IMG/VR virus record: IMGVR_UViG_3300038305_000186
Location: 1 to 20,892 of that record
Length of the DNA: 20,892 bases
Strand: one strand, 5' to 3'
Origin: a virus
The position numbers and the translations under genes were made by a program. Shown one piece after another: positions 9,744 through 17,217 of the stretch; positions within the stretch are counted from its first letter, which is position 1, and each line of letters begins with the position of its first letter. The notes under the pieces were generated by a model. That model was not told the DNA's origin and searched no databases. It worked only from the letters and a program-made list of their open reading frames with translations.

Positions 9744-9861
9744 TTTTATGTAGGATTTCTGTGGGGGTAGCTCTCTCTGTATAGAAAGGTATAGATTGTT
9801 GTTATGTACCTGCTTCTGGTTTCGTACCCCCTTCTTCCTTCTCTGGTTGTTTCTGGTGAGC

Positions 9862-9897
9862 CGCCCTCGTCTCCCGCTCCCTCCTCTTGCGAGGGCG
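9862..9897 (+). other. 8-bp hairpin in rightward leader
   Basis: CGCCCTCG at 9862-9869 pairs with CGAGGGCG at 9890-9897 around a 20-base pyrimidine-rich loop. No U-run follows, so it is not a typical terminator. It lies 50 bases before the first rightward start codon. GTC and CTGATG occur just after it, but a hammerhead core is not complete here. Confidence 0.55.
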
Positions 9898-9946
9898 TCT
9901 CTCCTGATGCAATCACGCGTCAACTCTCTCTTGAAAGGAGATTACT

Positions 9947-10102
9947 ATGTTACTTCGTTTATCAATCGTGATGGTTCTTTATTTCACTTTCGTTACTGGT
10001 ATTGCTATCGAATATACGTCTGCCAGTCCCGATCCTATCGTTATTATTACGTCTATCCTTGGACTAGTAGTAGCCCCGTTCATAACTGTATTGGAGGTTT
10101 AA
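9947..10102 (+). CDS. 51-residue membrane protein
   Basis: An ATG at 9947 behind GAAAGGAG opens a 51-codon frame ending in TAA at 10100-10102. Two hydrophobic stretches, about residues 4-21 (RLSIVMVLYFTFVTGIAI) and 30-48 (PIVIITSILGLVVAPFITV), suggest two membrane spans. They are joined by a short polar loop (EYTSASPD). It is the first gene of the rightward block, so it is probably expressed early. The family is unknown. Possible roles such as host takeover or superinfection exclusion are guesses from position only. Confidence 0.75.
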   Translation: MLLRLSIVMVLYFTFVTGIAIEYTSASPDPIVIITSILGLVVAPFITVLEV

Positions 10103-10252
10103 ATGTCTGAATTATTTGAGACGTACGATCGTTTGTATACTGCAGCGAAAGCTATTGGAGATACCGTCGCAATGAATAAGTATTCTGTCTTAATGGATCG
10201 ATTGCAAGATGTAATCATTGATGAAGGAGAATTGTTATGTACAAAGTTTTAA
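10103..10252 (+). CDS. 49-residue hypothetical protein
   Basis: This frame starts at the ATG immediately after the preceding TAA, with GGAGG inside the end of that gene as its ribosome-binding site. It runs 49 codons to TAA at 10250-10252. The protein is helical and amphipathic (MSELFETYDRLYTAAKAIGD...MDRLQDVIIDEGELL) with no membrane span or known motif. Its end overlaps the next gene by 16 bases, and the next gene's ribosome-binding site (AAGGAGA) lies within it. The close packing is the main reason to believe it is real. Confidence 0.7.
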   Translation: MSELFETYDRLYTAAKAIGDTVAMNKYSVLMDRLQDVIIDEGELLCTKF

Positions 10253-10545
10253 TACCAGAAGGCTATAAAACGTGGGGTGGTTACGATTCTTATTACCACG
10301 CCGTTAGATTTGATACCGAAGAACAAGCTTACGGTTTTGCCCTTGCCGCTCTTCATTACACACAAGTAGTACACGAGGAAATGTACTTTACTTTTACGGA
10401 CATATATATGTTAGATGTCAATACTGATAAACTCTTTCGCGCGACTAATTATGAAAGGAAAGAATTTAAAGGTCAAAGGAGTGTGCTATCGTTTGTGTGG
10501 GAAGAAGCTGATGAAGATGACGATTATCTTCGTTCCTGGTTTTAG
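10237..10545 (+). CDS. Hypothetical protein, 102 residues
   Basis: This is an acidic, aromatic-rich protein I do not recognise. It opens with YKVLIPEGYKTWGGYDSYYHAVRFDTEEQAYGFALAAL, which looks like an alpha/beta fold with a helix after the FDTEEQAY segment. It ends with a very acidic WEEADEDDDYLRSWF. No catalytic motif is visible. It starts 16 bases inside the preceding gene, behind AAGGAGA. The last base of its TAG stop codon is also the first paired base of the hammerhead ribozyme at 10545-10596, so its mRNA 3' end is probably made by ribozyme cleavage after 10565. Confidence 0.75.
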   Translation: MYKVLIPEGYKTWGGYDSYYHAVRFDTEEQAYGFALAALHYTQVVHEEMYFTFTDIYMLDVNTDKLFRATNYERKEFKGQRSVLSFVWEEADEDDDYLRSWF

Positions 10546-10596
10546 CCGAAACGCCTTAGGGCGTCTGTATAGGTGAACTCTATACACTGATGAGGC
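10545..10596 (+). ncRNA. Type II hammerhead ribozyme 1
   Basis: All core parts of a hammerhead are present in the type II order. Stem II 5' strand GCC (10545-10547) leads to GAAA (10548-10551). Stem III pairs ACGCC (10551-10555) with GGCGU (10560-10564) around UUAG. The cleavage base is C10565 in GUC. Stem I pairs UGUAUAG (10566-10572) with CUAUACA (10580-10586). CUGAUGA (10587-10593) and stem II 3' strand GGC (10594-10596) complete it. Stem II is short (3 bp) but may be extended beyond an internal loop (10538-10539 with 10601-10602). Cleavage would occur between 10565 and 10566. Two more copies downstream, with compensating stem changes, make chance unlikely. Activity was not tested. Confidence 0.93.
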
Positions 10597-10603
10597 AGTT
10601 CCT

Positions 10604-10635
10604 TAGTCATAAATCATGGAGAATTATTATGACAA
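10604..10635 (+). repeat. 32-bp leader repeat, copy 1
   Basis: Thirty-two bases, identical to 11105-11136, run from just after the ribozyme through the ATGGAGAATTATTATG ribosome-binding site into the second codon. The pair marks a duplicated ribozyme-plus-leader module. Confidence 0.9.
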
Positions 10636-11042
10636 CTTCTTATACAACTAAACACGGTAGAGGTTCTATAATGCACGACGTTGATGTCGAGCAGAACTCC
10701 GATAAGTCTTGGACTACCCTTCGAAGTGAAGAGTATGGGGCCGACCATACCTTCCAAGACTCTTGTAGCTCTGGAGAGGATTACGTTCGCTTTATGTCCT
10801 TATTCTCGCCAGAGGGCTTTCATAAAGGTAGCTACCTTCACTTCACTGATAGCGCTGTATCAGTATCCTTCGATACTAGTTCGGGTCACTTATCGGTTAT
10901 TGCGTTTCCGCAACACCCTCAGTATAAATCTTTCCCTCAAGCTGAGACTGAGATAGAACCGACTCCCCACGATCACCCACCAGCCCTTGGGAAGTTCATT
11001 GTGAGCCAATACGTTTATACAGCACCAGCTAGTAATGACTAA
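10629..11042 (+). CDS. Hypothetical protein, 137 residues
   Basis: I chose the ATG at 10629, eight bases after GGAGA. The longer frame from 10590 would start inside the CTGATGA core of the ribozyme and is not credible. The protein (MTTSYTTKHGRGSIMHDVDVEQ...) is rich in Ser, His, Asp and aromatic residues, looks mostly beta (SYLHFTDSAVSVSFDTSSGHLSVIAF), and has a Pro/His-rich segment near residues 109-117. No family was recognised. It lies between two hammerhead ribozymes, so its mature message should run from 10566 to 11063 and encode only this protein. A strong leader shared with the SSB gene suggests high expression. Confidence 0.75.
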   Translation: MTTSYTTKHGRGSIMHDVDVEQNSDKSWTTLRSEEYGADHTFQDSCSSGEDYVRFMSLFSPEGFHKGSYLHFTDSAVSVSFDTSSGHLSVIAFPQHPQYKSFPQAETEIEPTPHDHPPALGKFIVSQYVYTAPASND

Positions 11043-11095
11043 GCCGAAACGCCTTCGGGCGTCCGTAGGAAATGATCATCCTACGCTGACGAGGC
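11043..11095 (+). ncRNA. Type II hammerhead ribozyme 2
   Basis: It begins at the first base after the TAA stop codon. Stem II GCC (11043-11045) pairs with GGC (11093-11095). GAAA is at 11046-11049. Stem III pairs ACGCC (11049-11053) with GGCGU (11058-11062), closed by a UUCG tetraloop. The cleavage base is C11063. Stem I pairs CGUAGGA (11064-11070) with UCCUACG (11079-11085) around an 8-base loop. The core is CUGACGA (11086-11092), where C replaces U at the variable position 7. Five of seven stem I pairs differ from ribozyme 1 yet pairing is kept, which is strong covariation support. Cleavage is expected between 11063 and 11064. Confidence 0.94.
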
Positions 11096-11104
11096 AGATC
11101 CTCA

Positions 11105-11136
11105 TAGTCATAAATCATGGAGAATTATTATGACAA
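11105..11136 (+). repeat. 32-bp leader repeat, copy 2
   Basis: This is identical to 10604-10635 and carries the ribosome-binding site and first two codons of the SSB gene. It lies 10 bases after the ribozyme, against 8 for copy 1. Confidence 0.9.
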
Positions 11137-11585
11137 ACACAATCAAAACATCTATCATCCGCGACGTAACTCTTAACTACGCCTTCCTCGATACACCTCA
11201 CGCCCCTTTCGGTGGTGATCCAGTGTTCGACATCCAGGTTGTAGTACCTAAGAAACGTCGTAAGGAACTCGAAGCTTTCGGGAAGGTCCGTGAAGTTGAG
11301 GGTGGTGTTGCTATTAACATTAAGCGTTACGCTAAGGATGCTAAGGGTAAGGCCGTTAAGATCGATGTTGTTACTTCTACTAAAGAAGACTTCCGTGCTG
11401 AGTATGGTAGTGCTTCTTGTATTGGTAACGGTTCTAAGGGTGCTATTAAGGTCTTCACATATCCTCGTGGAGAACAAACTATCGCCCGTCTTTCTGCTGT
11501 CCAAGTGACTGAGCTTAAGAAATATGAGCCTACTACTATCGACTTCGATTCAGTTAAGACTGATGCAGTTGAAGAAGACTTTTAA
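11130..11585 (+). CDS. Single-stranded DNA-binding protein, first paralogue
   Basis: This 151-residue protein resembles T7 gp2.5-like / DUF2815-type SSBs that coat ssDNA during replication. It has an N-terminal IRDVTLNYAFLDTPHAPFGG..VFDIQVVV strand region, a basic patch (PKKRRKELEAFGK), the SCIGNGSKGAIKVFTYP turn at about 96-112, and LSAVQVTELKKY at 121-132. The acidic tail ends in Phe (VEEDF), the usual contact point for polymerase and other partners. The protein at 16714-17184 shares this layout. This copy is bracketed by hammerhead ribozymes 2 and 3, so its message should be excised as a single-gene RNA (11064-11608). The lysine codons AAG and other regular codon choices look like those of a highly expressed gene. 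Confidence 0.8.
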   Translation: MTNTIKTSIIRDVTLNYAFLDTPHAPFGGDPVFDIQVVVPKKRRKELEAFGKVREVEGGVAINIKRYAKDAKGKAVKIDVVTSTKEDFRAEYGSASCIGNGSKGAIKVFTYPRGEQTIARLSAVQVTELKKYEPTTIDFDSVKTDAVEEDF

Positions 11586-11640
11586 GTCGAAACTCCCTTC
11601 GGGGAGTCTACGTAGGATAGTCTCTACGTACTGATGAGAC
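11586..11640 (+). ncRNA. Type II hammerhead ribozyme 3
   Basis: It begins right after the SSB stop codon. Stem II GUC (11586-11588) pairs with GAC (11638-11640). This is a U-A pair where the other two have C-G, a clean compensating change. GAAA is at 11589-11592. Stem III is 6 bp, ACUCCC (11592-11597) with GGGAGU (11602-11607), with a UUCG loop. The cleavage base is C11608. Stem I pairs UACGUAG (11609-11615) with CUACGUA (11624-11630). The core CUGAUGA is at 11631-11637. The following gene starts 27 bases later with a different leader from those behind ribozymes 1 and 2. Cleavage is expected between 11608 and 11609. Confidence 0.94.
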
Positions 11641-11667
11641 AGACATCTCAATTGAAAGGAAACTGTT

Positions 11668-12057
11668 ATGTCGCGTTACAAAGAAATGGACATTGCAATC
11701 CAAACAATGATGCTAGCTAACCCTATCATCGATCCTCTCGCTAATGCTATTGAGGATGAACACCTTGAGCTTCACTACGAATTCTTGTTTGAACAGGGAG
11801 TCGATGAGTCTATCTTGGAGGTTATAGACGATGTTGTCTATAAATCTTTCTGGGAGAACCTCGTGGATAAGTTTGATGAGTTCTTCCTCGATAATGGTAT
11901 CGCCGTTCATACTTATGAGAACGATGATTATAAACTCTTAAGTAAAATCGAGAAGGTCTTAGTAGACCAAAGGTTTGCCTCTGCAATGATTGAAGATGCT
12001 AAGAAAGAGATACAACAACGTATCGATATGGCCATTCTTGATAGGCAGGCTAAATAA
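11668..12057 (+). CDS. Hypothetical acidic helical protein, 129 residues
   Basis: I do not recognise this protein. It is acidic and almost all helical by appearance: HLELHYEFLFEQGVDESILEVIDDVV, then FWENLVDKFDEFFLDNG, then KKEIQQRIDMAILDRQ. There are no cysteines and no obvious catalytic motif. The start at 11668 follows GAAAGGA. The gene lies directly after ribozyme 3, so the 5' end of its message would be the stem I hairpin of that ribozyme (from 11609). Its stop codon overlaps the ATG of a 23-codon membrane peptide by one base. Confidence 0.75.
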   Translation: MSRYKEMDIAIQTMMLANPIIDPLANAIEDEHLELHYEFLFEQGVDESILEVIDDVVYKSFWENLVDKFDEFFLDNGIAVHTYENDDYKLLSKIEKVLVDQRFASAMIEDAKKEIQQRIDMAILDRQAK

Positions 12058-16713: not shown

Positions 16714-17184
16714 ATGAGTGAAAGTAAAGTAATGATTGTACGTGACCTGAAAGCTTACTACCCAAAGCTGAAGAAGCCAGTAGCACCGTTTGGTACTGAG
16801 CAATTCGAGCTACAAGTACGGACTGAAGAAAGCTCAGAAGCTTTTAAGACTCTCACTGATTTAGGTGTGAAAGGTAAGCCACAAGAAGATGGTACGATCG
16901 CATTTAATCTTAAGCGTAAAGCAAAGAACCGCAAGGGTGACGAGAATGGCGCACCCGATGTAGTCGATGCAGCGCGGAAGCCGTTTGACGCTTCTATTAT
17001 TGGTAACGGTTCTGGCGTTAATGTCAAACTGTTTACCTACCCTTACGATGTTCAAGGGCGTAAAGGCACTGGCGTAATGTTGTCTGCCGTACAAGTCACT
17101 GATTTAGTTGAGTACAAACCAACAAACAACGTTGACTTTGATGCGGTAGAAGATACTACTGTAGGTGCTGAAGAAGACTTTTAA
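16714..17184 (+). CDS. Single-stranded DNA-binding protein, second paralogue
   Basis: This 156-residue protein shares with the one at 11130-11585 the order IVRDLKAYYPKL.KPVAPFG..QFELQV, then a lysine-rich KRKAKNRKG, then SIIGNGSGVNVKLFTYP (about 94-110), LSAVQVTDLVEYKP, DFDAV and an acidic tail ending EEDF. This is the gp2.5/DUF2815-like phage SSB layout. It seems the better match to a standard replication SSB, as it sits between DUF3310 and PolA. Outside the shared blocks the two proteins differ, so duplication is old or the copies were acquired separately. A strong UUCG hairpin follows its stop codon. Confidence 0.82.
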   Translation: MSESKVMIVRDLKAYYPKLKKPVAPFGTEQFELQVRTEESSEAFKTLTDLGVKGKPQEDGTIAFNLKRKAKNRKGDENGAPDVVDAARKPFDASIIGNGSGVNVKLFTYPYDVQGRKGTGVMLSAVQVTDLVEYKPTNNVDFDAVEDTTVGAEEDF

Positions 17185-17193
17185 TTCTTAATT

Positions 17194-17217
17194 GGGGATG
17201 GCTTTCGAGTCATCCCC
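17194..17217 (+). other. UUCG hairpin after SSB gene
   Basis: GGGGATGGCT and AGTCATCCCC form a 10-bp stem (one G-U pair) closed by a TTCG tetraloop, a very stable RNA hairpin. It begins nine bases after the SSB stop codon. No U-run follows (TACAAAGG), so it is more likely a 3'-end protection or attenuation element than an intrinsic terminator. Confidence 0.8.

Follow-up and report, generated by a model that had tools for sequence, protein, structure and literature searches.

What might be the role of three hammerhead ribozymes that stand in a row among the early genes of a phage, each at the end of a reading frame? This question is raised by a viral DNA of 20,892 nucleotides (IMG/VR record IMGVR_UViG_3300038305_000186), referred to here as the window, by which is meant the whole stretch of DNA that was analyzed. 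Its source is a marine phage, probably one related to the roseophages. The minus strand of the window encodes terminase-like and ribonucleotide-reductase-like proteins and a LysM protein, and facing these genes is the early/replication region on the plus strand, at the end of which a family A DNA polymerase is encoded. It is argued below that the ribozymes are probably transcription-independent formers of mRNA 3'-ends, which would split the early operon and isolate the gene for a single-stranded DNA-binding protein (SSB).

Identity and architecture of the three hammerheads

A search with the Rfam hammerhead II model (RF02276) gave three matches on the plus strand of the window: copy 1 at 10544-10604 (34.0 bits, E 3.3e-7), copy 2 at 11042-11103 (41.7 bits, E 3.2e-9), and copy 3 at 11585-11648 (52.8 bits, E 3.9e-12), the E-values referring to this record alone. 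The gathering score of RF02276 is 37 bits. Copies 2 and 3 exceed this value, and copy 1 falls 3 bits short of it, which counts against the reading favored here. Copy 1 is classed as a hammerhead because of its core, its pairing, and its homology to copy 2, rather than on the basis of its score. Zero hammerhead II matches were obtained in 14 control genomes. No fourth hammerhead was found in the window, either by the Rfam search or by a motif script, and 3 of the 26 CUGANGA words in the window belong to ribozymes. The weak Rfam matches of the window to the microRNAs mir-9223 and mir-506 scored far under their own cut-offs and were set aside as chance. The features of the locus are as follows.

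10237 to 10545, plus strand: gene upstream of hammerhead 1, 102 aa
10543 to 10545, plus strand: stop codon UAG of that gene, its G being the first base of stem II
10545 to 10601, plus strand: hammerhead 1, type II, with stem II 10545-10547/10594-10596; GAA 10548-10550; stem III hairpin 10551-10564, loop UUAG; C17 at 10565, predicted cleavage after 10565; stem I 10566-10586; core CUGAUGA 10587-10593; pseudoknot of loop GAACU 10575-10579 with AGUUC 10597-10601
10597 to 10631, plus strand: leader after hammerhead 1, with Shine-Dalgarno GGAG and AUG
10629 to 11042, plus strand: gene between hammerheads 1 and 2, 137 aa
11040 to 11042, plus strand: stop codon UAA before hammerhead 2, adjoining stem II
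11043 to 11100, plus strand: hammerhead 2, type II, with stem II 11043-11045/11093-11095; GAA 11046-11048; stem III 11049-11062, UUCG tetraloop; C17 at 11063; stem I 11064-11085; core CUGACGA 11086-11092; pseudoknot of GAUC 11074-11077 with GAUC 11097-11100
11096 to 11132, plus strand: near copy of the hammerhead 1 leader, after hammerhead 2
11130 to 11585, plus strand: gene between hammerheads 2 and 3, Gp2.5-like ssDNA-binding protein
11583 to 11585, plus strand: stop codon UAA of the SSB gene, before hammerhead 3, adjoining stem II
11586 to 11644, plus strand: hammerhead 3, type II, with stem II 11586-11588/11638-11640; GAA 11589-11591; stem III 11592-11607, UUCG tetraloop; C17 at 11608; stem I 11609-11630; core CUGAUGA 11631-11637; pseudoknot of GUCU 11620-11623 with AGAC 11641-11644
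11668 to 12057, plus strand: gene after hammerhead 3, 129 aa

In each copy stems I and III are closed by loops and stem II is open, which is the type II topology. The core letters GAA, A15.1-U16.1, C17, and CUGANGA are intact in all three, and a C-G pair closes stem II in each. The proposal of three type II hammerheads in the initial annotation is thus borne out by the complete cores and by the covariance model, which matches all three copies, copy 1 below its cut-off. The cut sites predicted there, after 10565, 11063, and 11608, are correctly positioned according to the motif and core reading. With such sites and intact cores, all three copies would be expected to cleave themselves. Stem I contains 8, 7, and 8 base pairs in copies 1, 2, and 3, respectively. 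Taken alone, the stem III segments of the window fold as hairpins of -7.1 to -9.1 kcal/mol and the stem I segments as hairpins of -5.7 to -8.5 kcal/mol. The 3-bp stem II is missing from the minimum-energy folds of copies 2 and 3, as calculated by a simple procedure that ignores the pseudoknot, and this point also weighs against the favored reading.

Covariation and the pseudoknot

Covariation within the stems, claimed earlier from the three copies, was evaluated with an alignment of 11 homologous ribozymes, 10 of which are distinct (alignment A1), and it is clearly present. Indeed, 96.5% of the cells in this alignment are paired versus 76.2% upon shuffling, and the covariation score is 0.619 versus 0.212 for the shuffled alignments (0 of 500 shuffles as high), with slid structures reaching at most 0.172. 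Two-sided changes occur in 43 cells, as compared to 12.2 in the shuffles, and are distributed over 11 of the 20 pairs, including all seven of the stem I pairs considered.

Overlooked by the earlier reader was a pseudoknot of 4-5 bp, present in each copy, that joins loop I to the tail lying 3' of stem II. Its letters change in step from copy to copy, namely GAACU/AGUUC, GAUC/GAUC, and GUCU/AGAC. Of the 51 viral type II hammerheads with a large loop among the matches listed, 44 have a loop-tail pairing of at least 4 bp, versus 10.8 with shuffled tails. Another form of type II hammerhead in viruses, exemplified by L027, L030, L035, and L074, has a short loop I (mostly 3 nt) and often 4 bp in stem II; just 2 of 44 of these among the matches listed display the loop-tail pseudoknot.

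That the three motifs are dead remnants of former ribozymes, as might be surmised from the score of copy 1, is scarcely credible in light of these data: the core is intact in the three copies and in all of the aligned homologues, nearly all cells are paired with many two-sided changes, and the pseudoknot has been kept.

Genes surrounding the array

The placement of each copy at a stop codon, as first claimed in the initial annotation, is exact, with an overlap for copy 1 and direct abutment for copies 2 and 3. The product of the gene lying between hammerheads 2 and 3 matches phrog_112 (E 1.4e-7) and has an acidic tail ending in EEDF. No homologues of this SSB were found in bacterial genomes, and an AlphaFold model of it, for which four sequences were supplied, was of too low a confidence to be used (mean pLDDT 40.5). 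The start of the 137-aa gene at 10629 is common to a 75% identical homologue in contig L002. The 102-aa gene upstream of hammerhead 1 was not found in the relatives fetched, and the product of the 129-aa gene is 76-91% identical in contigs L001, L002, and L003. No intrinsic terminator, defined as a G+C-rich hairpin followed by a U run, was found near the three ribozymes. A scan for sigma-70-like promoters gave 5 sites versus 7.2 in shuffles, none of them inside the elements, although a promoter specific to the phage may be present.

The AUG of the CUGAUGA core (at 10590 in the window and 5962 in L001) shares its reading frame with the gene that begins 39 nt downstream, and ORF callers therefore start that gene inside the ribozyme. 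Such an in-frame core AUG is observed in copy 1 of the window, in Roseobacter phage CRP-7, and in the second copy of L001.

CRP-7 (MK613349) is the nearest cultured relative, and it shares its polymerase (40%) and SSB (36.5%) with the window phage. It carries one hammerhead II (570-633, 50.1 bits) that is 78% identical to copy 3 of the window over 59 bases. A 49-aa frame upstream ends in UAG, the G of which opens stem II, and directly following the ribozyme is gp02, a divergent paralogue of the Gp2.5-like kind that matches the second SSB of the window at E 6e-11 and phrog_112 at E 0.0018. The hammerhead of CRP-7 thus resembles the window copies in its stop overlap and its Gp2.5-like neighbor, and differs from them in being a single copy; the array is not conserved in this phage, which counts against the favored reading. 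Given that the one CRP-7 ribozyme precedes a Gp2.5-like gene, the linkage between ribozyme and SSB is probably older than the array. The hammerhead is not annotated in CRP-7, and no ribozyme is mentioned in that phage's own paper. Note that gp02 is annotated as 619-1116 in MK613349, with the start at 619 falling inside the ribozyme core. CRP-7 additionally contains a group I intron, on the minus strand at 16986-17196 (79.2 bits). It lies in the region of the ribonucleotide reductase, for which the annotation gives two genes separated by an ORF. With regard to the SSB itself, a second Gp2.5-like gene is located at 16714-17184 in the window and is ~42% identical to its paralogue at 11130-11585. 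Such a paralogous pair occurs in L001 as well, and CRP-7 likewise has two (gp02 and gp19); a hammerhead precedes only the first of the two genes.

Probable exchange of gene cassettes at the ribozymes

Relatives of the SSB gene between copies 2 and 3 are encoded on four IMG/VR contigs, and a wider search for SSB loci with an alignment query returned the same four only. Hammerheads occur at matching places on all of them, numbering 3, 3, 2, and 1, the contig with one being that which stops inside the SSB gene. A ribozyme directly before and another directly after the SSB gene are kept in L001, L002, and L003. The slot of the 137-aa gene is variable: the 75% identical homologue fills it in L002, an unrelated 78-aa gene fills it in L001, and it is absent in L003. 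The L002 homologue was recognized by direct comparison, a viral scan with the 137-aa protein having given no relative.

L003 contains one ribozyme where L002 has two flanking the 137-aa gene, and this ribozyme is a hybrid. Its 5' part, consisting of the stop flank and a stem III with the UUAG loop, corresponds to the first copy of L002, whereas its stem I, CUGACGA core, tail, and SSB leader correspond to the second; the left flanks of the hybrid and the first L002 copy are 93.5% identical. Since the ribozyme is a composite of the two, it is probable that an exchange inside a ribozyme brought the cassette in or removed it. At the DNA level, the window becomes similar to L001 and L003 again from 11036-11038 onward, which is the 5' edge of copy 2. 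The segment to the left of hammerhead 2, from 9830 to 11036, has little or no similarity to most of the relatives fetched and constitutes a hypervariable early segment unlike the DNA on either side.

From the hybrid in L003, the unrelated gene occupying the same slot in L001, the resumption of similarity at a ribozyme edge, and the 83% identity of copies 1 and 2 over 95 columns with their leaders included, it could be supposed that the ribozyme-leader units persist mainly as recombination junctions for the swapping of early genes, with RNA cutting secondary. Selection for recombination alone, however, does not require two-sided pair changes with the core left intact, and 128 of the 184 contig strands with phage hammerheads, among the matches listed, carry one only. 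As an account of why these units persist, it appears unlikely.

Stop-codon placement across viral hammerheads

Viral hammerheads were gathered by pattern from viral contigs, which represent samples and are partly related to one another. Genes were called by a simple ORF rule, and position was expressed as that of the stop of the preceding frame with respect to the first base of the ribozyme. The interval accepted for the stop was first -12 to +4 nt and was widened to -12 to +9 nt after type I cases appeared in which the stop is the UGA of the core; the counts for types II and III hardly change between the two. Among the matches listed, a stop lies within -12 to +9 nt of the ribozyme edge in 57 of 81 type I and 81 of 107 type II hammerheads but in merely 4 of 88 of type III, and the corresponding numbers for a reverse-strand control are 4, 4, and 6 for types I, II, and III. 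When the same listed matches are counted by contig cluster, the values are 27/29, 42/51, and 2/25, respectively. Placement at a stop codon is thus general among the sampled viral hammerheads of types I and II. A pattern scan of bacterial genomes gave six type II hammerheads that pass the motif test, and all six are at stop codons; they are too few to be counted as a replicate.

Of 221 viral cases among the matches listed, 216 have 15 nt or more between the stop and the cut, the medians being 27 nt for type II, 51 nt for type I, and 37 nt for type III. The shorter cases include plainly wrong gene calls, as evidenced by negative distances. In types I and II, the upstream product ends in stem III by virtue of the ribozyme's own layout. 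A type III ribozyme is cut at its own 5' side and supplies no hairpin, and if the purpose is an upstream mRNA that ends in a hairpin, a separate one would be expected to lie between the stop and the cut. Indeed, the type III stop-to-cut stretch has a median folding z of -2.65, whereas the remaining stops on these contigs give 0.0 (p 3e-12, among the matches listed). In a test that dispenses with gene calls, the hairpin signal is located just upstream of the cut and is absent at other offsets. The extra hairpin is found in 15 of 25 type III contig clusters among the matches listed; the 10 without it, mostly with short gaps of about 17-23 nt, count against the favored reading. With the cut located ~20 nt or farther beyond the stop, the upstream mRNA would therefore end in a hairpin in most cases.

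Genome compaction alone might also bring a ribozyme to a stop codon, in that it would simply fill the non-coding slot between the stop and the next ribosome-binding site. The distance to the next start codon is alike and short in all three types (medians of 23-27 nt), a base is shared with the stop in 25 of 93 type II hammerheads, and the UGA of the core CUGANGA serves as the stop of the upstream gene in 12 of 68 of type I (for example, L131, L177, L208, and L235), all among the matches listed. Type III hammerheads, on the other hand, are of the same size and in the same setting and yet do not lie at the stop, and their spacer, in the 15 clusters noted above, is a stable hairpin rather than random sequence. 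Compaction as the sole cause is accordingly quite unlikely, but it may contribute in part to the placement at stops, and this point, together with the simplicity of the ORF rule, counts against the favored reading.

Proposed role in mRNA 3'-end formation

Under the favored reading, the three hammerheads would cut the early plus-strand transcript while it is being made, after 10565, 11063, and 11608. The view in the initial annotation of an early phage operon cut gene by gene is retained in this predicted form. The cut of a type II hammerhead falls between stems III and I, and for that reason the upstream mRNA would end in the stem III hairpin, ~20-23 nt past the stop, with a 2',3'-cyclic phosphate. 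The downstream piece would begin with the stem I hairpin and a 5'-OH, its ribosome-binding site being free. The following RNAs are predicted.

10566 to 11063, plus strand: predicted single-gene RNA between cuts 1 and 2, 498 nt
11064 to 11608, plus strand: predicted single-gene SSB mRNA between cuts 2 and 3, 545 nt

Both the SSB gene and the swappable gene before it would in this manner become single-gene messages with protected ends. Cutting would replace terminators, and the RNA polymerase would continue into the next genes. The stop appears to be set such that the cut lies just beyond the terminating ribosome, and translation of the trimmed mRNA would therefore end normally. A terminating ribosome covers slightly more than ten nucleotides past the stop, so the trimmed message should be readable to its end. 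Exonucleases acting from the 3' side would meet a hairpin. Cleavage itself, its timing relative to ribosomes, the protection of the ends, and the effect on expression are inferred.

The same end chemistry suggests another fate, in which RtcB, or the ribozyme acting in reverse, would join the ends of the RNA released by two cuts to give a circular mRNA such as that for the SSB. The 5'-OH and 2',3'-cyclic phosphate left by hammerheads are substrates for RtcB. Additionally, the 3' strand of stem II in one copy pairs with the 5' strand in the next (GGC with GCC from copy 1 to copy 2 and GGC with GUC from copy 2 to copy 3), and the ends of each piece could therefore rebuild a hammerhead. These shared letters may merely reflect duplication, however, and Perreault et al. 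(2011; PMC3088659), on examining tandem hammerheads for products that were spliced or circular, found none. Circularization is thus regarded as highly improbable.

Relationship to known systems

Type II hammerheads with the loop I/3'-tail pseudoknot were described by Perreault et al. (2011; PMC3088659), who also reported tandem hammerheads around single phage genes and proposed that single-gene mRNAs are formed. Their arrays (Fig. 3 of PMC3088659) include a triple around ardA in Agrobacterium tumefaciens and those of Clostridium scindens and Azorhizobium caulinodans. Cleavage of the prophage arrays was observed in vitro, and that of one array in E. coli (PMC3088659). The window copies have the same topology, core, C17 cut site, pseudoknot, and phage setting as the RF02276 hammerheads of that study and, apart from the low score of copy 1, differ from them in no essential respect. 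Likewise, the prophage arrays are tandem, surround single genes, and were proposed to cut out single-gene mRNAs; the window array differs in the gene isolated, which encodes a Gp2.5-like SSB and belongs to the early region of a CRP-7-related virus. Among the viral contigs, 20 of the 67 strands with type II hammerheads have two or more, and arrays of 2-10 hammerheads are seen, in both cases among the matches listed. In L357, L305, L027, and L041, for example, a single strand bears 5 to 10 hammerheads. The suggestion in the initial annotation that the layout is uncommon and such operon cutting not well described does not stand in view of the 2011 study and of viral arrays of up to ten among the matches listed, and for the same reasons the triple array was rejected as unique. 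The tandem array itself is of an already known kind (Perreault et al. 2011).

In the haloviruses HF1 and HF2, a mapped 5' RNA end lies within 3 nt of the cut of the hammerhead HHphage (PMC3088659). That ribozyme, as in the window, stands before an early phage gene, and it differs in its variant core, its single copy, and its archaeal virus. The promoter-stem-loop cassette (PeSL) of T4-type phages is a mobile short repeat between early genes, with a hairpin at the preceding stop and a promoter, and it marks junctions of gene exchange. The window elements resemble it in being short early-gene repeats with a hairpin at the stop and in lying at probable gene-exchange junctions; PeSL contains a promoter and no ribozyme, whereas the window elements contain a ribozyme.

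The words stop codon, terminator, ribosome, and exonuclease are absent from the main text of Perreault et al. (2011; PMC3088659), and a 2017 review (PMC6155905) considers the role of prokaryotic hammerheads an open question. No statement of the stop-codon rule was found in the largely open-access literature searched. As far as could be checked, the rule and the type III hairpin are the new part, and the interest of the finding comes from them.

Extended beyond this locus, the argument would make phage hammerheads a distinct class of mRNA 3'-end-forming element that cuts just after a stable hairpin, ~20 nt or farther beyond the stop, a generalization for which we see about equal chances of its being right or wrong. 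Types I and II supply their own hairpin and would therefore sit on the stop codon, and for type III a separate hairpin would stand between the stop and the ribozyme. The stop rule, the floor of ~20 nt from stop to cut, and the type III hairpin amount to a concrete, testable claim concerning the role of hammerheads, and CRP-7, a cultured phage with one ribozyme before an SSB gene, is suited to direct RNA mapping. If the generalization is true, these ribozymes would convert read-through early transcripts into single-gene messages protected at both ends, with the polymerase left unstopped.
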